This document shows positions 30,438 to 62,398 of a stretch of 64,000 bases of DNA, piece after piece. The stretch's first letter is position 1, and each line of letters starts with the position of its first letter. The notes beneath the pieces are model-generated. The model worked only from the letters and a program-made list of their open reading frames with translations, was not told the DNA's origin and made no database searches. Both the position numbers and the translations under genes were made by a program. The DNA is from a virus: IMG/VR virus record IMGVR_UViG_3300009514_000001, positions 158,006 through 222,005 of that record; one strand, given 5' to 3'.

Positions 30438-32555
30438 TTAGTCGACCTCCTCGTACTCCTCCATGGCCTGGATGAGGAGGCCGCGGGCAACCGCGTTGAG
30501 GGGGTTCTCCGCCTGACGGATTTCGCTGATCTTGATGGGGAACCGGCGGCGGTGCTTCTTGAAGACCTTCTGGAAGAGATCCATGAACCCACCAGCCTTC
30601 GAGGTCCCTCCGCTGACGATGATGGGGATGGGGTTCGTCAGCTCAATCTGACAGTTCGCCACGAACTGCTCCGCCACCTTCTTGAGGGCGTAGGAGATAA
30701 GTTCCTCGTAGTAGAAGGACAGCGCCTCCCGGTCCCGGAACTTGGACTCCTCGCCTTCACTCGGGTCGAGGAGGTTGATCCCGGCCTCCTTGATGCGACA
30801 GATGCGAGAACGCGTCGAGTTACGGCTCTTGGCCGCCCCCGCGTCAATCCAGTCGCCACAGTTGTGGACAACCATACCCGGAGAGGAGAAGGAGTGATGT
30901 TTAGAGGCTACTCGGACATCGTAGACCCTGCCGTCGTAGGGAACTTGGTCAACCCTCTTAACGACGAAACAGGCGAAGTCCGGCTTCTGTGGGTGGAGGT
31001 TGACACCTTCGTGTGCAAGGAGAGTGTCCAGAAGGGTCTTGGATAGGTGACCGACAATACGAACGTCGTAACAAGGCTTACGACCCTCGATTCGCACCCC
31101 CTTTGAGTTGATTCCGCCCTGTCTGGGCGGTCTCTTGAGGACACTATGGCGAATTCCGAACCTGTTGAGTAGGTGATGCACCAACAACACCACATGTAGA
31201 GAGGTGTTGTGGATGGTGTGGCGCTTCTCCTCTTCCGTCGAGTCGCTATCCAGAAGACCCTCCAAAACCCCAAGTGCCATGCTGTCGGGGATATTACGCA
31301 CACTCAGAGGAAACGTCTTCTCCCCCTTCTCGTCGTAAAACCGGGCCTTCAGGTGCCGGGCGACAGGTGTGAGGTGGAGCTTTACCCTCGTAAGGTTCTC
31401 CTTCGGGTCATCAACGACCTCTACCTCACGATGAAACAGGACGGAGCACACCTGGGCATACTTGCGAACCAGGTGTTGGTCCCTGCGGTTGATTGCAAAC
31501 TGGACGAACCGCGAGTCCTCTGTCCGGGGTCCGCAAGAGCCGTCCCCCAGAAACATACCCAGGAATTTGCCTAGGTTCCTGGCAGTGGCAACGGTAATAT
31601 TCCGGCCCCCAAGGCGACCGAAGTAGTAAGGCCCAGAACACTTCTTCTCAGTCTGGATAGTCGGAACCCCGACAACGTCCCCCTCCCGAAGAGAGCCTGC
31701 GGCTACCCATTGCCAGCCGAACCGATCCCTCACGAAAACCCGGTGATCTCGGGTCATCTTGTGAGAGAACGCGGGAAGGTGCTCCAGGAACACCTCCACC
31801 AAAGAGTCCCGAGAACCGTTGTCCATCCTCTCTAGGACTTCGACAAACCTCCCCTGGGCGTCGAGAACGTAATCCCCCTCGCGTACCTCGGCCATCGGCA
31901 CAACGCCGCGACGGGTAATAACAGGAAAATCCCCCGCCAAACATCTGGAAATCGAAAATTCCAGGACCGGTCGGGTCTTGAAGCTCAGAGCGACATTCGT
32001 CATCCCCGATCCGAACGACATCGAGATACCAGTGTAGTCGTCCTTGAGGCCCTCGGAGAAGACGATGGCCATGGCCTCGTTCGAGTCCCAGGCCTCGTAG
32101 CCGCACTCGGTGATGATGCGCTCGAAGGCCTTCTTGTGGTAGATCACGTCCCTATCTGCGTCGATGGGGGCGGCGGGGACGCTGTAGTAGCAAATCTCCC
32201 CTTCCTCCTGAGGCTCGCCCAGGACGCTCCTCACCAGGATGCCGAGGATTTCGAGAGAGTCCACCTCGCTGGCCGACACAAGACCCTGGGCGAGAGGACG
32301 CCGGGCCTCCTCCCTCATGATGCCGGCAAGCTCCATGGCGTCATCGCCGACGACGATGAGGTCCTGGTCGCGCTCGACGAACGTGATCTTGCTCCGGCGG
32401 AGCATCTTCCGGTCGTCCTTGTCCAACGTGATGAACGCGTCGCGGACACGACGGTAGCTCACCTTGTCCGCCGTCTGCCTGGCCGCGACAAGATTCATGG
32501 TTCCGATGTCGAGGCCTATGCCTTTAACCACTTGAACTTGTTTATCTTTTCCCAT
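30438..32555 (-). CDS. Actin-like ATPase (ParM/Alp type) interrupted by an intein
   Basis: ATG 32555 starts a 705-residue precursor. Residues 1-204 and 566-705 form an actin-like protein of 344 residues after splicing. They show phosphate-1 motif GIGLDIGTMNLVA, phosphate-2 region GISMSFGSGMTNVALSF, then after the intein CGDWIDAGAAKSRN (the GGDWID-like segment) and the adenosine motif IPIIVSGGTSKAGGF. ParM-type filaments move plasmid or phage DNA, and phages use them to position DNA or replication sites. The intein sits between conserved strands of the ATPase core, so it must be removed for activity. The gene is followed closely by a small gene that could encode an adaptor. Confidence 0.85.
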   Translation of the reverse strand: MGKDKQVQVVKGIGLDIGTMNLVAARQTADKVSYRRVRDAFITLDKDDRKMLRRSKITFVERDQDLIVVGDDAMELAGIMREEARRPLAQGLVSASEVDSLEILGILVRSVLGEPQEEGEICYYSVPAAPIDADRDVIYHKKAFERIITECGYEAWDSNEAMAIVFSEGLKDDYTGISMSFGSGMTNVALSFKTRPVLEFSISRCLAGDFPVITRRGVVPMAEVREGDYVLDAQGRFVEVLERMDNGSRDSLVEVFLEHLPAFSHKMTRDHRVFVRDRFGWQWVAAGSLREGDVVGVPTIQTEKKCSGPYYFGRLGGRNITVATARNLGKFLGMFLGDGSCGPRTEDSRFVQFAINRRDQHLVRKYAQVCSVLFHREVEVVDDPKENLTRVKLHLTPVARHLKARFYDEKGEKTFPLSVRNIPDSMALGVLEGLLDSDSTEEEKRHTIHNTSLHVVLLVHHLLNRFGIRHSVLKRPPRQGGINSKGVRIEGRKPCYDVRIVGHLSKTLLDTLLAHEGVNLHPQKPDFACFVVKRVDQVPYDGRVYDVRVASKHHSFSSPGMVVHNCGDWIDAGAAKSRNSTRSRICRIKEAGINLLDPSEGEESKFRDREALSFYYEELISYALKKVAEQFVANCQIELTNPIPIIVSGGTSKAGGFMDLFQKVFKKHRRRFPIKISEIRQAENPLNAVARGLLIQAMEEYEEVD
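30861..31943 (-). mobile_element. Intein with LAGLIDADG endonuclease in the actin-like ATPase
   Basis: The intein spans residues 205-565 of the precursor. It begins with Cys (CLAGDFPVITRRGVVPMAEV, block A), has a block-B-type TRDHRVFV, two LAGLIDADG helices (LGKFLGMFLGDGSC and ALGVLEGLLDSDSTEE), a block-F-like YDVRVASKHHSF and ends HN followed by Cys (HN|CGDW). All residues required for canonical splicing (Cys1, block B His, His-Asn, Cys+1) are seen. Both acidic endonuclease residues are present, so it may still be mobile. Confidence 0.93.
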
Positions 32556-43373: not shown

Positions 43374-44266
43374 ACCTTCACCCTCTTGGCCACGCCCGCC
43401 TTTCCGTACTTGAACACACGCAAATGGCACTTGGCCTTATAGTCCTTGGGCAAGTCATCCGCGAACCCCTTGAACTTCACCTTTCCCGGTACCAGGTAGA
43501 GGTTCAGGCTCAGATCTTCCAGGTTGAGGACCATGAGGGATGTCGTACTCATGTTGTCCGTGTCACGGACGATGTTGTAGGGGTCGTCGGGGTTCTTGAG
43601 AGAAGGCTTGCGTAGGGCGTCAGCAATAGTCTTAGGCTTCGAGAGGGAACTAAGACCCCTCACGGCCCTGTCATGGCGTTCCACAGAGGAGCGGTGGTCA
43701 TCCCCTTTGGTGTAGCCAGCATCAGGATAGGAGAACCCATGGTTGGTGCGCACCCAGGTTTTACCCTTCGGAACCCTCTTGATGACCGCCTCGTGCTTAC
43801 GAGTCATCTCGATGCTGACCGTGGAGGAGGAGTCACTTAGAAACGTATGACCCTTTATCCCTCCCTTGAATGTCAGAAGGGACTCCTGAGCCTGGGCTAG
43901 GGTCTTCTTCCCCAGAGCGCGGAAGATGCGAGGACCGTCCTTCGACTTCTTCTTCTTCTCGGACTTCGCAATTTCCTTCTCAGCCTCATCCCGACCGACC
44001 TGGAGAGCAGAGTTCACGATGCCAATACCGTATTCGTTCAGACCCTCGACCCAGCCGGTCAACACGTCCTCCAGGTAGAGAACCTCAACCCCGCCCACGA
44101 GGGTATGGACCACCCGCACCTCCGGAACATAGTTGCGATCTCTGGTCTTCACCAAACACCGCTCTCCGCCCCAGACCCCCGCGGCCACCACACATGAAGT
44201 GCGTATCCCGAACAGGCTCCGCACATATGCCGCCGCCACACGGCGGGCGATACTCCACCGATCCAC
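43370..44266 (-). CDS. Ntn-hydrolase-like protein (298 aa)
   Basis: GTG 44266 has GGGGGTGAA upstream. The region around residues 22-90 (RTSCVVAAGVWGGERCLVKT, RDRNY, DVLTGWVEGLNEYGIGI) resembles Ntn hydrolases of the C45/C59 type: a nucleophilic Cys (C25), an RDR/N motif and a WVEGLNEYGI segment. Those enzymes gain an N-terminal Cys by self-cleavage and hydrolyse amide bonds. A Lys/Glu-rich stretch (KSEKKKKSKDG) follows at about 105. Near structural genes it could be a maturation peptidase, but acyltransferase or amidase activity on small molecules is equally possible. Confidence 0.55.
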   Translation of the reverse strand: MDRWSIARRVAAAYVRSLFGIRTSCVVAAGVWGGERCLVKTRDRNYVPEVRVVHTLVGGVEVLYLEDVLTGWVEGLNEYGIGIVNSALQVGRDEAEKEIAKSEKKKKSKDGPRIFRALGKKTLAQAQESLLTFKGGIKGHTFLSDSSSTVSIEMTRKHEAVIKRVPKGKTWVRTNHGFSYPDAGYTKGDDHRSSVERHDRAVRGLSSLSKPKTIADALRKPSLKNPDDPYNIVRDTDNMSTTSLMVLNLEDLSLNLYLVPGKVKFKGFADDLPKDYKAKCHLRVFKYGKAGVAKRVKV

Positions 44267-44308
44267 TTCACCCCCAGGAAGGTCGACCGGACCTTCTACC
44301 TGGAGTGT

Positions 44309-44596
44309 TCATAGACAACTCACCGAGAGGCCAGCCTCCAGGAAGCCCCAGACATGCCATCCACATCCGGGCCGGGGACACAGGATTGAGGCGTTGATCT
44401 CCCCATTGTCCTCGATGGTGTAGTTGCGCAGGTCCTCGGCATGTTTGCCACACCCACCACAGATGAGGTGGACTCCCTCGTGGTGATTGGAGTCGTCGCT
44501 GTAGAACTAATGCATGAGGGCGACAGAGGGGCGCTCCGCCTCAACGGCCCTGTCGTAGTCGGTGAAGAACTCGGCGTGGAGAGCCTTCGAGACCAT
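44309..44596 (-). pseudogene. Zinc-ribbon gene with in-frame amber codon
   Basis: ATG 44596 opens a frame of 29 codons to TAG (44509-44507). The same frame then continues 65 codons to TGA at 44309 with no other start. The second part carries LICGGCGKHAEDLRNYTIED and CPRPGCGWHVWGFLEAGL, a clear zinc ribbon. Either the gene is inactivated, the TAG is read through or recoded, or the sequence has an error there. Confidence 0.5.
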
Positions 44597-44646
44597 CCGC
44601 TTATGGGTTTCGGAAGGCAGCACGCACACAGGAGGACCTGAGAGGC

Positions 44647-44700
44647 TCAGAGAATGTCGCCCTTGAACTCACGGCCGCAGTGGGGGCAGGTGATTGGCAT
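44647..44700 (-). CDS. 17-residue zinc-knuckle microprotein
   Basis: ATG 44700 is preceded by GGAGGACACC at good spacing and encodes MPITCPHCGREFKGDIL, then TGA. CPHC is half a zinc ribbon; a dimer could bind one zinc ion. It is short but has the best ribosome site in the region. Confidence 0.4.
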   Translation of the reverse strand: MPITCPHCGREFKGDIL

Positions 44701-44711
44701 GGTGTCCTCCG

Positions 44712-44797
44712 TCGTTGATGACGAGAGAACCATACCAGAAGGGACACGGACAGGCAAAAGATTGTGTAAGTATTTAGAATAGTTAAGAAAAACCGCC
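44712..44797 (-). promoter_or_regulatory. AT-rich spacer, possible promoter
   Basis: Directly after the C-terminal fragment gene the minus strand reads through a strongly AT-rich stretch (TTTTTCTTAACTATTCTAAA, TACTTACACAATCTTTTG) unlike the GC-rich surroundings. It precedes the microprotein start and may hold a promoter, but no box pair fits well. Confidence 0.3.
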
Positions 44798-45430
44798 CTA
44801 CAAAAACGACCTAGGACTCAACACGCCCCGACCGACAGCGGGGCCGAAACTCGACCGGATTCCGATGCCAAATCGAGGCTGTTGGAGTCCTCGGAGGAGC
44901 TTCGTGGTCTGAATCTTGACCTCGGTGGCGCCCTTCTCGAAGTGAGCCTCGGCCTGATTCTTCAGGCTCTGGTACTTGGAAGATTTCTCTATGTCGAGAC
45001 TGATACCGCCAATGGAATATGAGTTGTGGGCCACCACACCATTGGTCAGCACAAAGTTCTGGTCCCCCGGCACACACAGGTCATAGGTATGCTCCTGAGG
45101 CTCCAAACGCTCGACGGAGGCCACCTCCACCTCCCGAAGAGTCCCGTCAAACACCACAGCCAAAGGCATTCCAGGTTCGATGCTGGACCCCTCAACCGCA
45201 ACCAGGCAGTCCCCTTGACGCAAAAAGAGGCTGTGGTCCTCCGTGCAGACTACCGAGAGACCCCCTACCAGGGCCACACACACCATCTCTTTGTGGTCTG
45301 TTTGATGCTCCATCACATCTGACACCACAGACTCAGAGACCTCTCCCGTTTCCGGGGAAACGGACCTCACCTTCAGAGTTCCCGCCAGGAACTCCTCTCG
45401 AATAGCCCTTGCAAGGTCTTGGTCAATCAT
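44798..45430 (-). CDS. Fractured structural gene, piece 3: split-intein C-half 2 plus C-extein (210 aa)
   Basis: ATG 45430 overlaps the TGA of the endonuclease gene (ATGA) and has GGAGGAGAGG upstream. Residues 1-136 are an intein C-part: block B GGLSVVCTEDHSLFL, block F-like EPQEHTYDLCVPGDQNFVLT and the end NGVVAHN, followed by Ser137. Residues 137-210 (SYSIGGISLDIEKSSKYQSL, LLRGLQQPRFGIGIRSSFGP) are the C-terminal extein of a phage structural protein. It must be joined to the middle piece (46373-47146) whose extein ends NWVADEF. The joined sequence ADEF-SYSIGG reads as a continuous conserved motif. Confidence 0.88.
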   Translation of the reverse strand: MIDQDLARAIREEFLAGTLKVRSVSPETGEVSESVVSDVMEHQTDHKEMVCVALVGGLSVVCTEDHSLFLRQGDCLVAVEGSSIEPGMPLAVVFDGTLREVEVASVERLEPQEHTYDLCVPGDQNFVLTNGVVAHNSYSIGGISLDIEKSSKYQSLKNQAEAHFEKGATEVKIQTTKLLRGLQQPRFGIGIRSSFGPAVGRGVLSPRSFL

Positions 45431-46383
45431 CGCCTCTCCTCCACCGCTCGCCGCACCCGAGAGATACATCCCTGGAGATCATTTTTCACCGCATGTCCAG
45501 GGAGGCGGACAACCGCCCACCCTCGTCTTGTCAAGTAGGTCTTGCTTTTGTCCAAACGTTGTGTGTCTGGACGCCCATCAAAACCACACTCGACACACCC
45601 GTGCCAATAGCAACCATCGACTTCGACGGCGATCTTCAACTCCGGGTGTGCCTCATCTAGGTGGTAGTACCCCACCTCATATTCTGTTTGGAACCCGACC
45701 AGGCCGCTCTGCTCCAGCGCCCGGGTAACCTCTCGGTGGAGCCTCGTATGTTTCTTCGTGAGGTGTCTACGAGCATTCAGAGCGAGTGCGAGGGACTTCT
45801 CCCTGTTGTCCCTGTGCCACCTCTCCACCTGCCCTCGCAAAGGACCTTCTGCCCAACGCTTTCTCGTTTCCTCTCCTCTCTGAACCCTCTGTTCGGGGTC
45901 CTGATTGAGCTGGCGAAGATGAGCAGCGGCTTGTTCCTTGTACCCCGAGGCGTGTAGGAGAAGAGAGCTTTCCGAAATCCTCTCCCTCGTCTTTTCCCCC
46001 GCCGGAGTCTGGAACCTTTTCTTCAGGGTCTCTGACTGAGCTTCTCTCTGAGCAGGCGACTTTGCCTTGTTACTCTGACACAGCCCAGAAAGTACGCGAA
46101 CCTCCTGGTGGTTCTTTCGATAGTCCTCCAGAGACTTCCCGGAACATGCTCGCAAATGCCTAGTCGTCACCTGCGCTAGGAAAGCCCCACACTCCAAACA
46201 GACGACATAGTGTTCCCCCTCCACCAAGTTGCTCAGGGTAGAGGGGTCAATCTTACGTCGAAGAGGGGAGGAGGCATTCGGAAAGAAGGACAAAACACCC
46301 CGGCCCAAGAGGGTCGCCAGGGCTCTTTGATTGAACCCAAAACGCAACATTACCTGACGTTGGGAGAGACCCTTAGCGGACAT
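45427..46383 (-). CDS. Free-standing Vsr/EDxHD-type homing endonuclease between intein halves (318 aa)
   Basis: ATG 46383 lies inside the last codons of the intein N-half frame, with AGGGTGG upstream. Residues 1-40 carry a helix-turn-helix-like segment (RQVMLRFGFNQRALATLLG). Near 60-95 is a Ros-like zinc finger (YVVCLECGAFLAQVTTRHLR, ACSG, LEDYRKNH). The C-terminal 90 residues are a nuclease core (YEVGYYHLDEAHPELKIAVE, VDGCYWHGC, GWAVVRLPGHAVKND) of the Vsr-related family to which the phage enzyme I-Bth0305I belongs. It probably spreads the split intein insertion site. Confidence 0.82.
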   Translation of the reverse strand: MSAKGLSQRQVMLRFGFNQRALATLLGRGVLSFFPNASSPLRRKIDPSTLSNLVEGEHYVVCLECGAFLAQVTTRHLRACSGKSLEDYRKNHQEVRVLSGLCQSNKAKSPAQREAQSETLKKRFQTPAGEKTRERISESSLLLHASGYKEQAAAHLRQLNQDPEQRVQRGEETRKRWAEGPLRGQVERWHRDNREKSLALALNARRHLTKKHTRLHREVTRALEQSGLVGFQTEYEVGYYHLDEAHPELKIAVEVDGCYWHGCVECGFDGRPDTQRLDKSKTYLTRRGWAVVRLPGHAVKNDLQGCISRVRRAVEERR

Positions 46384-47146
46384 CGTGCACCACCCTATGC
46401 AAGACCGAAATGGGGAGATCAAACTCCCTGCCATCGGAAAGGATAACACGAACCAACGTATCCCCGGACACTGAAAACTCGTCAGCGACCCAGTTCGTCG
46501 CGAGGGCGAACATGGCGTAGACGATGGCGCCCCAGACGATGAAGGGCTTCCAGGTCGACTTCTGCTGGATGAGGATGTCGAGGTTGCACAGACCTTCCGT
46601 CTCTGGGGGGAAGGCGTTCCACCAGGCCAGGGCCATCTCCAAGTAGCAGAGCAGCTCCTCGTCGGTCCAAATCTGTCCGAAGACCCGATTGAAGGCGCCG
46701 ATTCGACCCTCATGCTCCGGGGGGCGGAAGTGGTAGTTCCGGTCGGGACTATTGCTGACGACCACGCCCGAGACTAGCAACTGGAAGTTGTGCCAACCGT
46801 CCACCGTCATATCGTACATGTATCGTCGCGAAGGGAGTTGGCGCTTATTGAGGACAGGAACTGTAGTGGAACAGCCAGCCTTCACGCCGAGCACCTCCTG
46901 TCCCACCTCCAAGCGCTCACACTCCACCTTCTCCGTGGGGGACACAAAGACCCTGTGACCTCCAGTAAGGACCATCACTCCGCCGTCAGTTTCCACTTCC
47001 CAGATAGATTCTTGAGGCACTTCGGCACGACTGACCTCTTGTACAGTACGCCACTCCGTCTCGCCCTCAGGGGAGACGGAGAGGGTGCGTAGGTGCCCTT
47101 TATGGAAAGCCTCACGAATCTTTTTCTTGGCTAGATCAGACAACAT
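46373..47146 (-). CDS. Fractured structural gene, piece 2: intein C-half 1, middle extein, intein N-half 2 (257 aa)
   Basis: ATG 47146 (GAGGAGGACC upstream) lies within the last codons of the upstream endonuclease gene. Residues 1-132 are intein C-half 1 (block B VMVLTGGHRVFV, block F MYDMTVDGWHNFQLL, end VVVSN then Ser133). Residues 133-224 are the middle extein (SPDRNYHFRPPEHEGRIGAF, GQIWTDEELLCYLEMALAWW, TNWVADEF). Residues 225-257 are intein N-half 2, starting with Ser (SVSGDTLVRVILSDGREFDL). The polypeptide thus needs splicing at both ends. The penultimate residue of C-half 1 is Ser instead of His, a known but less common variant. Confidence 0.88.
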   Translation of the reverse strand: MLSDLAKKKIREAFHKGHLRTLSVSPEGETEWRTVQEVSRAEVPQESIWEVETDGGVMVLTGGHRVFVSPTEKVECERLEVGQEVLGVKAGCSTTVPVLNKRQLPSRRYMYDMTVDGWHNFQLLVSGVVVSNSPDRNYHFRPPEHEGRIGAFNRVFGQIWTDEELLCYLEMALAWWNAFPPETEGLCNLDILIQQKSTWKPFIVWGAIVYAMFALATNWVADEFSVSGDTLVRVILSDGREFDLPISVLHRVVHDVR

Positions 47147-48035
47147 CGAACAGGTCCTCCTCTGTCCACACGAAGAACAACCACCCCCTCTTGGACGCCT
47201 CCCTATGGGCTCTATCCAACCTTCTTCGGACTTCGCTCTCGACGGGCATCTGGAGCGTCCAGGCGGCTTTTACTTCAACCAGAGCTGTCGCCCCGTCCAA
47301 ATAGGTGACAACAAAGTCCGGCAATATCCAACTACGGTCATCCAAGACGAGGCGTTTCTCGTACTCAAAGGAAACCACCTTGAAATCCGATTCCAGCTTC
47401 TCCACGGCGGCCTTCTCATAGGTGCTACGTACCCAGAACTCCTTCCTCTCACACTTCCCGGAAACTACCCTGGACCCTTTGCCCCGTATCCACTTTGCCG
47501 GGTCCTCTGCGATCCTCTTCGCCTGTTCCCGAGAACGTCGGACTCTCTCCTCCTGGCTTCTGTGGAATTCGAGGAGAGGGTCTCTATACGAGGGGTCCTT
47601 CCACAGACGACGAAATCTGTCTGAAATTCCCTGCCGTCTCTCGGGGGTAAAGGAGGCTCGGAGGCTGTCAATCTCTTCCGAGGACCTGATCCTCCCTCTC
47701 AGGCTATCAAAAACACCGTCTTGCCACATCTTTTCGAGTTGTCCGGGACGTTTCTTTCCCTTCCATTGCGCCCCAAGATGACGGCCGGCCTCGCGTCGTC
47801 GATCCATTGCTGCCTCGCACCTAACAGCCTTCGTCAACCGATGAATGCCTGCGATAGACAAGCCCGTAATTTGACTCATTTCCCCCCATGACTTACCCGA
47901 TTCATGGAGGAAGGTGACAATCCGAGACCTTTTCTCTCGAACCCCTTTGGGAGGTCTTCCCTTCTTAGAGAAAATCTCCCAAGAGAGACCCTCTTGTTCG
48001 AACAGAGAAGCCAATTCCGGATGGACACTACCCAC
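47136..48035 (-). CDS. Free-standing PD-(D/E)XK endonuclease between intein halves (299 aa)
   Basis: I choose GTG 48035, six bases after GGGAGG and overlapping the stop of the N-half gene (GTGGGTAG). The N-terminal part has a helix-turn-helix (SWGEMSQITGLSIAGIHRLT), followed by basic helices. The C-terminal part carries SILPDFVV-like and EVK residues: WILPDFVVTYLDGATALVEV then KAAW, a PD-(D/E)XK nuclease core, with an upstream YEKAAVEKL helix. It differs in family from the other free-standing endonuclease of the same gene, so the two breaks arose separately. Confidence 0.8.
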   Translation of the reverse strand: MGSVHPELASLFEQEGLSWEIFSKKGRPPKGVREKRSRIVTFLHESGKSWGEMSQITGLSIAGIHRLTKAVRCEAAMDRRREAGRHLGAQWKGKKRPGQLEKMWQDGVFDSLRGRIRSSEEIDSLRASFTPERRQGISDRFRRLWKDPSYRDPLLEFHRSQEERVRRSREQAKRIAEDPAKWIRGKGSRVVSGKCERKEFWVRSTYEKAAVEKLESDFKVVSFEYEKRLVLDDRSWILPDFVVTYLDGATALVEVKAAWTLQMPVESEVRRRLDRAHREASKRGWLFFVWTEEDLFDVV

Positions 48036-48519
48036 GAAGAACCTCCCACAGGTCTCCCATGCGAACATCCATGAGAGTCCCGTCTACATCTAGTCGTACC
48101 AACTCTTCCTCCCCGACACAGTGATCTCTGAGTAGGAGGCGGAGCTTGTTGACGCAGTCCTGTTGGGCTCCTGTCAAGGTGGCGACGCTGATTCCCTTGG
48201 AGATGACCTGGAAGTCCATGACCACTTCCTGAGACGCCTCTCCCGGGTTGAGCGTGAACGTCCACCGGATACGGTAGTCCCCCGCGACTGCGCTCGGGGG
48301 GACGAACAGGGCTGCGTAGTACTCCCCGATGACCGGGTTGACCGGCTTGCGGGGAACTCCCGGGGGGATTGGCACTTCCGTCTGTGGAGGGCCGGGGTCC
48401 AGGTAGAACAGCTCGTAGCTGATCTCGAACACATTGGTCGGACAGCCGTTGGCATCTTGGAAGAAGATACACAGGTCGCCCCGCTGGACTTCCTGACCTG
48501 GTGTGAACTGGATGGCCAT
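48028..48519 (-). CDS. Fractured structural gene, piece 1: N-extein plus intein N-half 1 (163 aa)
   Basis: ATG 48519 starts the N-terminal extein, residues 1-133: a beta-sandwich-like start (TPGQEVQRGDLCIFFQDANG, DYRIRWTFTL) and a linker DCVNKLRLLLRDH. Residues 134-163 (CVGEEELVRLDVDGTLMDVR) are a 30-residue intein N-half starting with Cys1. Splicing to piece 2 gives RDH-SPDRNYHFRPP. With piece 3 the mature protein has 299 residues. The three coding pieces and two endonuclease genes overlap end to end, so all five are translated from one message. Confidence 0.88.
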   Translation of the reverse strand: MAIQFTPGQEVQRGDLCIFFQDANGCPTNVFEISYELFYLDPGPPQTEVPIPPGVPRKPVNPVIGEYYAALFVPPSAVAGDYRIRWTFTLNPGEASQEVVMDFQVISKGISVATLTGAQQDCVNKLRLLLRDHCVGEEELVRLDVDGTLMDVRMGDLWEVLRG

Positions 48520-48530
48520 GGGCGGTTATC

Positions 48531-48785
48531 TCAGGAAGCCATCGCCATCGACTTGAGGTCTCGAACGGCGTGGGCGTAGGTTTTGGGCCTGAAGCTGACG
48601 GCCGTATCGGCGAAGTAGGTCCGCCTCAAATCCTCGACGATGGGGCTATTCTCGAACACGAAGAACTTCCGGTGGCGACTGTTGGGGTCCTTCTCGACGT
48701 CGACTAGCTTGACGCCAGAGGCCTGGAGGAAAGCCGCCAGGTAGAGGTCGCTGATTTTGGTCGTCATCTGCTGACTCTTGCGCAT
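48531..48785 (-). CDS. Small protein resembling DUF5659 phage proteins (84 aa)
   Basis: ATG 48785 follows AAGGAGACAGATAG; an ATG six codons later is an alternative. The sequence (SDLYLAAFLQASGVKLVDVE, FFVFEN, AHAVRDLKSM) matches the pattern of small phage proteins with an ISDLYLAA start and an RDLK end. Function unknown. It is 11 nt upstream of the fractured gene. Confidence 0.6.
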   Translation of the reverse strand: MRKSQQMTTKISDLYLAAFLQASGVKLVDVEKDPNSRHRKFFVFENSPIVEDLRRTYFADTAVSFRPKTYAHAVRDLKSMAMAS

Positions 48786-48924
48786 CTATCTGTCTCCTTT
48801 CATCTTGGAAGGCACCCCTAAAGGGGCTTACCAGGGCCCTGGTATAGCCACCATACTGCGAACCCCCGGCCAGGAGGGTTCCTGTCGGGGGTTCCGCGGA
48901 GCACTAGGCTTGTCGTGTCAGTCC

Positions 48925-49614
48925 TTAGAGGACTGCTCCGGTCTCGTCGTAGACGGCGACTGCGGACCCGGCGGTGCCGAGGTACTCGAAGGCCGCGTCC
49001 TTCAGCTTGGAGATGTGTCCCTCCGCCAGGGAGAGGTTGAAGAGTCCCGTCTGGTAGAGCTGGCGATGAGCGCCGGTTGTGAAGGCGCCACTGACGACGG
49101 GGTTGAACGTCGAACCGTCGGTATCGACGACAGACGCCGCCGGGAGGACGTACTCGTCCCCGTCCATGACGCGGAGGAGTTCGACGAGGTTCCCCGTCGA
49201 GTCGGAGCCTCCAGCGTCGGTCAGCTCAGTACTCGCTACAACGACAGAGAGCGCAGCATTGACCGTGGTGAGGGTCAGTGCGGTGCCCGCGTCGAGAATA
49301 GCAATCAGGCCTGCTGCGGCCGCATTGGCCTCAGCCGACGTGAGGGCATCCACACCAGCAGCGAGGCCGCCGGCCTCGATGTGGTCGATGAGGTATGCCG
49401 CGACGCCCTTGTACTCCGCCTGGGTCAGCAGGGCACCACCTCCACCCACGGAGGTGGCGACAGAGTCGTCCTGCGGACGACGAAGGTACTTGGTCTGCCC
49501 CGGAGGGCTGTACGTGAGCTGCTTCTGGCTCTCGTTCGGAATCAGGTCGAGAAGCTGGAGCTTGCCGGCAGGGATGTCAGCTCGCCTCAGCGCAACAAAT
49601 CGCTCGTTGGCCAT
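48925..49614 (-). CDS. Virion structural protein (229 aa)
   Basis: ATG 49614 follows CAGGAGTAGGAC. The protein is rich in Ala, Val, Thr and Gly, with a helical middle (SAEANAAAAGLIAILDAGTA) and strand-rich ends. Composition and neighbours point to a minor head or decoration protein. Gap to the next gene (48786-48924) shows no gene. Confidence 0.5.
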   Translation of the reverse strand: MANERFVALRRADIPAGKLQLLDLIPNESQKQLTYSPPGQTKYLRRPQDDSVATSVGGGGALLTQAEYKGVAAYLIDHIEAGGLAAGVDALTSAEANAAAAGLIAILDAGTALTLTTVNAALSVVVASTELTDAGGSDSTGNLVELLRVMDGDEYVLPAASVVDTDGSTFNPVVSGAFTTGAHRQLYQTGLFNLSLAEGHISKLKDAAFEYLGTAGSAVAVYDETGAVL

Positions 49615-61011: not shown

Positions 61012-62373
61012 ACACCGTTCTCCGAAACTTATGAAAATCTAGGTACACCTTGACTCCTGTTCGGTTCCTGCTTCATCGAGGCCGCCACCAGGAGACTAAC
61101 ATCCCCCGCCGGTCTTACGTCCTCTCCACAGACTGACACCGGGGAACTCCCGGCCAACTGTTTCAAATTGATTGCGGCGTTCAGGTCTCGGCCAACACGG
61201 AGGCCACATTCGCCACACTGATACACGCGGTCCGACAAACTCAAGTCAGACTTTACTTTCCCGCATCCGGAACACGTCTTCGAACTAGGAAACCACCGGT
61301 CCGCCTCGATGACCTCAACTCCGGCCCACTCGGCCTTGTAGGCCAACTGTCGTAGGAACTCGGATAACGAGGCATCCGACAACGCTCTGGAGAGACGCCG
61401 GTTCTTCAGCATCCCAGAAACGTTGAGCGTCTCGACCACCAGGACATCAGCACTCTCTACGATCTCACTGGTCGCCTTGTGCAATGCATCCTTGCGGAGG
61501 CACGACACCCGATAGTAGAGACGAGCTACTCTGGCTCGGGCTTTCGCTCTGTTCCTGCTGCCTTTCTGTTTTCTGGCTAGTGCCTTCTGAGCCCGCCGCA
61601 AACGGCGCTGGCACCGGGCCAGGGCACGAGGGTTCTCGAATACCTGTCCGTCACTCGTTACCGCAAGAGACTTGATTCCGACATCCACCCCAACCACTTT
61701 GGTTCTCGGTCGCTGGGGCATTGTCAGAACGGTCTGCTTGACAGATAGAGAAACGAACCACCTACCGGCTCTACAAGAGACAGTGGCCGACAGGATTTTC
61801 ACGTCTTCCCTCTCGGGTCCCGGAAGATATCCAACCTCTTTCAGTCGAATCCATCCGAGCCTCGGGAGCTTGATGCTACGACCATCTTCGGAGGTCTTGA
61901 TGGACCCGGTCAGACGGAACTTGAGAGGGCTCCGATGACGGCTCTTGAATCTCGGGAACCCTTTCCTCTTCGCTCCCTTCTTACAGCGCCGGAAGAATCC
62001 TCTGAAGGCCCTATCAAGGTCTCTCAGAGCTTCCTGAGGAGCACACTTGGACACGCCATACATCCAAGGAACGCCACCTTCTTCGGGGTCGGTCCTCTTG
62101 AGCTTGTTCAGCTCCCGATGGAGTTCGATGTTGTTCGGGGACTTCCCGGTGCTCTTGTAGGTCTCTATCTTCTGTTGGAGCCCCCAGTTGTAGGCCCAAC
62201 GAGCCGCTCCCGCATGGCACCGAAGTGCCGTGCGCTGGCGGTTGTTCGGGTCCAACTCGACCCGATATGCTCGTTGGACGACGGACATGGCTACTCGTTC
62301 CTCTTTTGGATTGAGGGGACCGGTGGGCCCAGAACCCCCGGGTAGGTCCAGAGCACCTACCAGGGGGTGTTCA
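61012..62373 (-). mobile_element. Solitary TnpB element (IS200/IS605 group), ends approximate
   Basis: The element holds TnpB and no TnpA. On the minus strand TTGAT (62378-62374), the same as the insertion target used by ISDra2, is directly followed by TGAACACCCCC and a short palindrome GGTAGG...CCTACC (62341-62361), as expected at the left end. The right end must lie between the TnpB stop at 61029 and the next gene start at 61010. The omega RNA probably overlaps the last TnpB codons. The exact ends are inferred. Confidence 0.6.
61029..62288 (-). CDS. tnpB: TnpB RNA-guided nuclease
   Basis: I choose ATG 62288 (MSVVQRAYRVELDPNN), which matches the usual TnpB start; the longer frame opens at the TTG of the target site. 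The 419-residue protein has the N-terminal helical domain (HAGAARWAYNWGLQQKIETY), then the RuvC parts: D in VVGVDVGIKSLAV, E in DVLVVETLNVSGM and the final D in GRDLNAAINLKQL. The CSGCG...CGECG zinc finger lies between the last two. All catalytic residues are present, so it may cut DNA next to a TTGAT-type motif using an omega RNA made from the element's 3' end. Confidence 0.93.
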   Translation of the reverse strand: MSVVQRAYRVELDPNNRQRTALRCHAGAARWAYNWGLQQKIETYKSTGKSPNNIELHRELNKLKRTDPEEGGVPWMYGVSKCAPQEALRDLDRAFRGFFRRCKKGAKRKGFPRFKSRHRSPLKFRLTGSIKTSEDGRSIKLPRLGWIRLKEVGYLPGPEREDVKILSATVSCRAGRWFVSLSVKQTVLTMPQRPRTKVVGVDVGIKSLAVTSDGQVFENPRALARCQRRLRRAQKALARKQKGSRNRAKARARVARLYYRVSCLRKDALHKATSEIVESADVLVVETLNVSGMLKNRRLSRALSDASLSEFLRQLAYKAEWAGVEVIEADRWFPSSKTCSGCGKVKSDLSLSDRVYQCGECGLRVGRDLNAAINLKQLAGSSPVSVCGEDVRPAGDVSLLVAASMKQEPNRSQGVPRFS

Positions 62374-62398
62374 ATCAAACGAGTATCGTCTCGGGACC

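Follow-up and report, generated by a model that had tools for sequence, protein, structure and literature searches.

The AceL-TerL and GOS-TerL split inteins have N- and C-halves of 25/104 and 37/115 amino acids (aa), respectively (PMC11766414), and the PolB16 OarG split intein has halves of 15/168 aa (PMC10189870). In the fractured genes that citing papers attribute to Dassa et al. 2009, a split intein breaks its host gene and a free-standing homing endonuclease gene occupies the gap. AceL NrdHF likewise has such a gene, encoding a GIY-YIG enzyme, in a break where intein endonucleases normally sit (98/48 aa; PMC7891396). Here we describe a head-tail-connector-like gene that is broken twice, on the minus strand of a 64,000-nt stretch of DNA (the window) within the 222-kb virus record IMGVR_UViG_3300009514_000001. 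Its two inteins share a short N-half, a long C-half and the Hint (Hedgehog/intein) fold with AceL-TerL, GOS-TerL, VidaL and PolB16 OarG, but they lie in another host gene, two of them to the gene, with both breaks holding an endonuclease gene, and they belong to many related loci, some of them unsplit. Identity to VidaL and PolB16 in structural alignments is just 13-20%. In contrast to AceL NrdHF, these inteins are broken close to residue 30, and the breaks hold genes for TnsA-like, Vsr-like or HNH enzymes. An endonuclease gene between intein halves within a broken host gene is a fractured gene of known type, here in a new form, as judged against the description of Dassa et al. 2009 in citing papers.

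We propose, at a probability of roughly 0.92, that a connector-like gene of a large phage was invaded at two motifs by two mobile inteins, that a separate endonuclease gene broke each intein some 30 residues from its start, and that two trans-splicing reactions yield a 299-aa protein while the homing endonucleases (HEN1 at site 1, HEN2 at site 2) home. With X1 to X3 as the exteins and IN and IC as the intein halves, three extein-bearing polypeptides would be made: X1-IN1, IC1-X2-IN2 and IC2-X3. IN1 and IC1 would pair and use thioester chemistry (Cys1), and IN2 and IC2 would pair and use oxyester chemistry (Ser1/Ser+1), so that two trans-splicing reactions would restore the intact protein. HEN1 and HEN2 would each cut the empty form of their site in co-infecting phages, and repair would copy the whole cassette. 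We infer splicing, strict pairing and homing from the anatomy of the locus and its evolution.

When both inteins are excised, a contiguous 299-aa protein results, with junctions after residues 133 and 225. It is contiguous in Tunturiibacter phage Tunturi_5, where it is annotated as a 'head-tail connector protein', and contiguous in part in Bacillus phage G gp165. A single spliced extein used as query of the viral collection gave no matches and an alignment query was needed; the resulting alignment/profile search defined a set of 80 virus loci, most of which have a contiguous extein. Both sites are empty in 65 loci, which mostly read RD[NQ]|NPD[RK] at site 1 and EF|DYSIGG at site 2. The invaded motifs read RD[NQH]|[SC]PDR and EF|SYSIGG, and both are conserved; insertion into conserved motifs is usual for inteins. 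Many of the related phages (L042, L043, L048, L050, L052 and others) also encode, upstream of the connector gene, a diverged second copy of a portion of the N-terminal extein domain.

Both C-halves match Pfam Intein_splicing (PF14890), IC2 with 39.1 bits and above the cut-off, and a PDB search with the intein profile retrieved solved inteins (E 2e-8). The residues of class 1 inteins are present at both sites: Cys or Ser at position 1, a conserved block B TxxH, an invariant C-terminal Asn, and Cys, Ser or Thr at +1. The preliminary description of this DNA had reported two inteins of differing first residue in one gene, which the nucleophiles and the phylogeny bear out. Among the inteins in the trees, Cys1 is found in all those at site 1 and Ser1 in all those at site 2 (21/21); a joint tree separates the inteins by site into two clades (support 100/100), and in the window the two inteins are about 32% identical to each other. 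Cys1 and Ser1 mark two separate site-specific lineages. The penultimate residue is His in all site-2 inteins. A histidine at the NX position (H42 of IC2) is invariant at site 2 and lacking at site 1; in the window's IC2 it is preceded by Glu, in place of Arg or Lys. The NX-motif histidine has been described as specific to Ser1 inteins (PMC10189870). With Ser1, Ser or Thr at +1 and the NX histidine, site 2 resembles the cysteine-independent Ser1 subgroup (PolB type), and its profile matches the Aes123 PolB1 intein (PDB 9hth). It differs from PolB-type Ser1 inteins in being a structural-gene allele with an atypical split, and it is not cysteine-free overall.

The half sizes recur across the family. 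N-half length ranges from 29 to 37 aa at site 1 and from 31 to 43 aa at site 2, and C-halves measure 124-139 aa; two divergent site-2 members, L158 and L159, have longer N-halves of 62 and 57 aa. The window's own sizes (30/132 and 33/136 aa) and first residues had been given exactly in the preliminary description, as translation shows, and its comparison with the atypical split of AceL-TerL stands: N-halves of such inteins are about 15-37 aa, with a split near the N end and a long C-half. The interval it had assigned, 46373-48120, does span IN1 to IN2 but leaves out IC2 (45023-45430).

Site 1 is occupied in 21 distinct virus contigs (20 split, and L064 unsplit) and site 2 in 23 (21 split, and L111 and L136 unsplit); seven viruses have both sites occupied. 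On the extein tree the inteins are scattered: site 1 needs 14 changes and site 2 needs 9. This patchy occupancy fits homing with loss, although spread has been partly vertical. No relative of the site-1 C-half was found in bacterial/archaeal genome contigs. The pair L056/L083 was considered as a recent transfer and dropped, its exteins being about as similar as its inteins.

At site 1, 14 loci have a TnsA-like gene in the break and L059 has an HNH gene; L075 and L106 retain an endonuclease remnant, and L062, L082 and L118 have no endonuclease. At site 2, 19 loci have a Vsr/DUF559-like gene in the break, L106 retains a remnant, and L082 has none. PF08722 was detected in all seven HEN1 family members scanned (best E 1e-9), and the signature YE...PDF...EVK is conserved. 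The match and the signature link the HEN1 family to TnsA and T4 gp4-like nucleases, from which it differs in its longer N-terminal region and its tie to the site-1 intein break. PF04480 and PF18741 were detected in all four HEN2 family members scanned. The window's HEN2 matches DUF559 above the cut-off and Vsr weakly, with a weak PDB match to the mobile intron protein 3r3p (E 0.19). The full-length relatives of HEN1 that were found all lie at site 1 of the connector-like gene, and those of HEN2 found in the viral collection all lie at its site 2; the weak HEN1 matches that were inspected share the nuclease domain alone and belong to other phage proteins. The two papers found to name TnsA alongside homing endonucleases and inteins are, by title and abstract, reviews on other topics.

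Four close pairs were compared. In three of them the ratio of nonsynonymous to synonymous change (dN/dS) for N-halves is about 0.06-0.08; the remaining pair (L056/L083, site 2) has identical N-half proteins and one synonymous change. For C-halves the ratio is 0.12-0.29 between close pairs. These are simple counts on short stretches and the ratios are rough. Purifying selection on the halves is also seen where one locus of the pair lacks an endonuclease. The low ratios indicate that the halves are kept as working proteins. Since the Pfam and PDB matches are joined by exact restoration of the extein on excision, half sizes that recur at both sites in dozens of contigs and strong purifying selection on the N-halves, the identity of these elements as inteins is far beyond chance.

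In order to model the fold, the natural unsplit relatives L064 (site 1) and L136 (site 2) were used, with the split halves as alignment rows. Both gave confident Hint folds (predicted local distance difference test, pLDDT, 97.0 and 97.3), with best structural matches to the Mtu RecA mini-intein (Z 20.9, L064) and PI-PkoII (2cw7; Z 21.5, L136). VidaL matched the L064 and L136 models with Z 18.1 and 19.0, and PolB16 with Z 15. The Hint fold that the preliminary description had expected of the N/C pairs is the one that the unsplit relatives at both sites adopt in the models. In these models the loop that connects helices 21-30 and 37-45 (about residues 31-36) contains the split point. Endonucleases usually sit much further along, around residue 100-120, and the N35 loop of PMC6801210 follows the split point by about 20 residues, the residue mapping being approximate.

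The unsplit site-2 intein of L111 is 89% identical to the split intein of L154, whose HEN2 is intact, and the two are sisters (support 99/95). The two loci share 100% identity in extein 3 and 99.7% over the 1.5 kb that follows, against 80% in the middle extein. Because identity jumps from 80% to 100% (L111:4373-5341 vs L154:2625-4534), a recombination border lies at or within the intein. The simplest reading is that in L111 HEN2 was deleted and the halves fused in frame. Insertion in L154 is a possible alternative, in which the same gene family would have had to reach the same loop again. L136 does not group with L111 (approximately unbiased, AU, test, p 8e-60). At site 1, L064 is placed among split inteins in the tree and a position outside all splits is not rejected (AU p 0.13); we do not claim re-fusion for L064, where the change may have run in either direction.

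Several observations weigh against the proposed explanation. IC1 alone falls under the Pfam curated cut-off (23.3 vs 35.8 bits), as does the window's HEN1 against PF08722 (22.7 vs 26.5 bits). The penultimate residue is Ser, not the usual His, in 16 of 21 site-1 inteins. The fold models are those of unsplit relatives of the window's inteins. A moderate correlation links extein identity with intein identity (r 0.39 and 0.55), from which it follows that spread has been partly vertical.

Three other explanations of the locus were weighed. The two genes in the breaks might be ordinary phage genes that lie between the halves by chance, HEN1 for instance being a gp4-like head-completion nuclease. HEN1 does match PHROG 218 'head closure' (E 2e-5), whose members probably have the nuclease fold in common with it; however, empty sites lack HEN1 and HEN2, each is confined to its own site, an HNH gene stands in place of HEN1 in L059, and in other loci each of the two is missing or survives as a remnant. 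We regard this explanation as improbable. Slightly less credible still is a gene that has decayed or been split for good, its pieces serving as separate subunits and the intein halves being fossils. Split genes without splicing exist in principle, and the endonuclease is gone or a remnant in some loci, but both halves have remained under purifying selection even after endonuclease loss, the nucleophile and terminal Asn are invariant, and it is the intein that is split, not the extein at a border between its domains.

Removal of the interruptions as self-splicing RNA introns is the least plausible of all, and we consider it close to negligible. Group I introns with endonucleases do occur in phage structural genes. 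Against this, the intein motifs stop exactly at the extein borders, in-frame unsplit inteins exist at both sites, and an Rfam search of 44000-49500, up to E=1, gave no match.

The broken locus consists of five minus-strand open reading frames (ORFs), overlapping or nearly adjacent, in the order X1-IN1, HEN1, IC1-X2-IN2, HEN2 and IC2-X3 (Table 1). The longest HEN1 ORF begins at 48068; its start is probably the GTG at 48035, after GGGAGG. The ATG of the IC1 ORF, at 47146, is preceded by GGAGG, the HEN2 start overlaps the IN2 stop, and the HEN2 stop overlaps the IC2 start (ATGA at 45430). Such ribosome-binding motifs, and starts that overlap the stop before them, suggest that expression is coupled.

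Table 1. Features of the broken connector-like gene, in window coordinates.
Feature	Coordinates	Strand	Basis
ORF, extein 1 + IN1	48519-48028	-	
ORF, IC1 (132 aa) + 92-aa middle extein + IN2 (33 aa)	47146-46373	-	
ORF, IC2 (136 aa) + extein 3	45430-44798	-	
N-extein, residues 1-133 of 299	48121..48519	-	contiguous intein-free homologues
IN1, 30-aa N-half, site 1, Cys1, CVGEEELVRLDVDGTLMDVRMGDLWEVLRG	48031..48120; stop 48028-48030	-	translation; short N-half in 20 split site-1 loci
HEN1, TnsA-like, site-1 break	47136..48035	-	PF08722, family alignment, start context
IC1, 132-aa C-half, site 1, ends ..SN, then Ser+1	46751..47146	-	PF14890, alignment
Middle extein, residues 134-225	46475..46750	-	
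IN2, 33-aa N-half, site 2, Ser1, SVSGDTLVRVILSDGREFDLPISVLHRVVHDVR	46376..46474; stop 46373-46375	-	translation
HEN2, Vsr/DUF559-like, site-2 break	45427..46383	-	PF04480, PF18741, alignment
IC2, 136-aa C-half, site 2, ends ..HN, then Ser+1	45023..45430	-	PF14890, alignment
C-extein, residues 226-299 + stop	44798..45022	-	

Other features were seen in the same record. An actin-like phage gene (Volactin, PF25216, E 9e-68) at window 30438-32555 (minus strand) carries a contiguous LAGLIDADG-bearing intein, and further contiguous intein matches lie outside the window (G000 C1:70653-75362, 84964-85884, 90579-91853 and 94925-95263), several of them in one 2414-aa frame; the phage is intein-rich. An IS605 OrfB/TnpB-like protein with a Cas12f1-like TNB domain is encoded at window 61029-62378 (minus strand).

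The middle protein holds a C-half, an extein and an N-half in one chain, so the two natural pairs would be expected not to cross-react: cross-reaction would cyclise the middle extein, and IN1 joined with IC2 would skip it. Mean charge is -6.8 for site-1 N-halves, +1.6 for site-1 C-halves and -8.6 for site-2 C-halves. As both partners are acidic, pairing of IN1 with IC2 would be unfavourable, going by composition alone. A chain of C-half, extein and N-half is also the layout used for peptide cyclisation (split intein circular ligation of peptides and proteins, SICLOPPS). For tool makers, the family offers two natural pairs in one gene, seven viruses with both, and a middle protein of SICLOPPS-like layout.

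Beyer et al. 2019 (PMC6801210) found it puzzling that intein endonuclease domains occur at one conserved site, and asked why no other positions are used. In the family described here, separate endonuclease genes use another position, in two intein lineages, and the split may make the presence of an endonuclease at the residue-30 position sterically harmless. We lean, by a narrow balance of probability, towards a general pattern in which unrelated endonuclease families repeatedly settle in the loop near residue 30 by splitting the intein, and in which the split is reversible, the halves re-fusing into an ordinary single-chain intein after endonuclease deletion, as L111 beside L154 suggests. With the series of states at fixed sites of one gene, from empty through split with enzyme, split with remnant and split without enzyme to unsplit, it becomes possible to test how split inteins arise and how the split is reversed.
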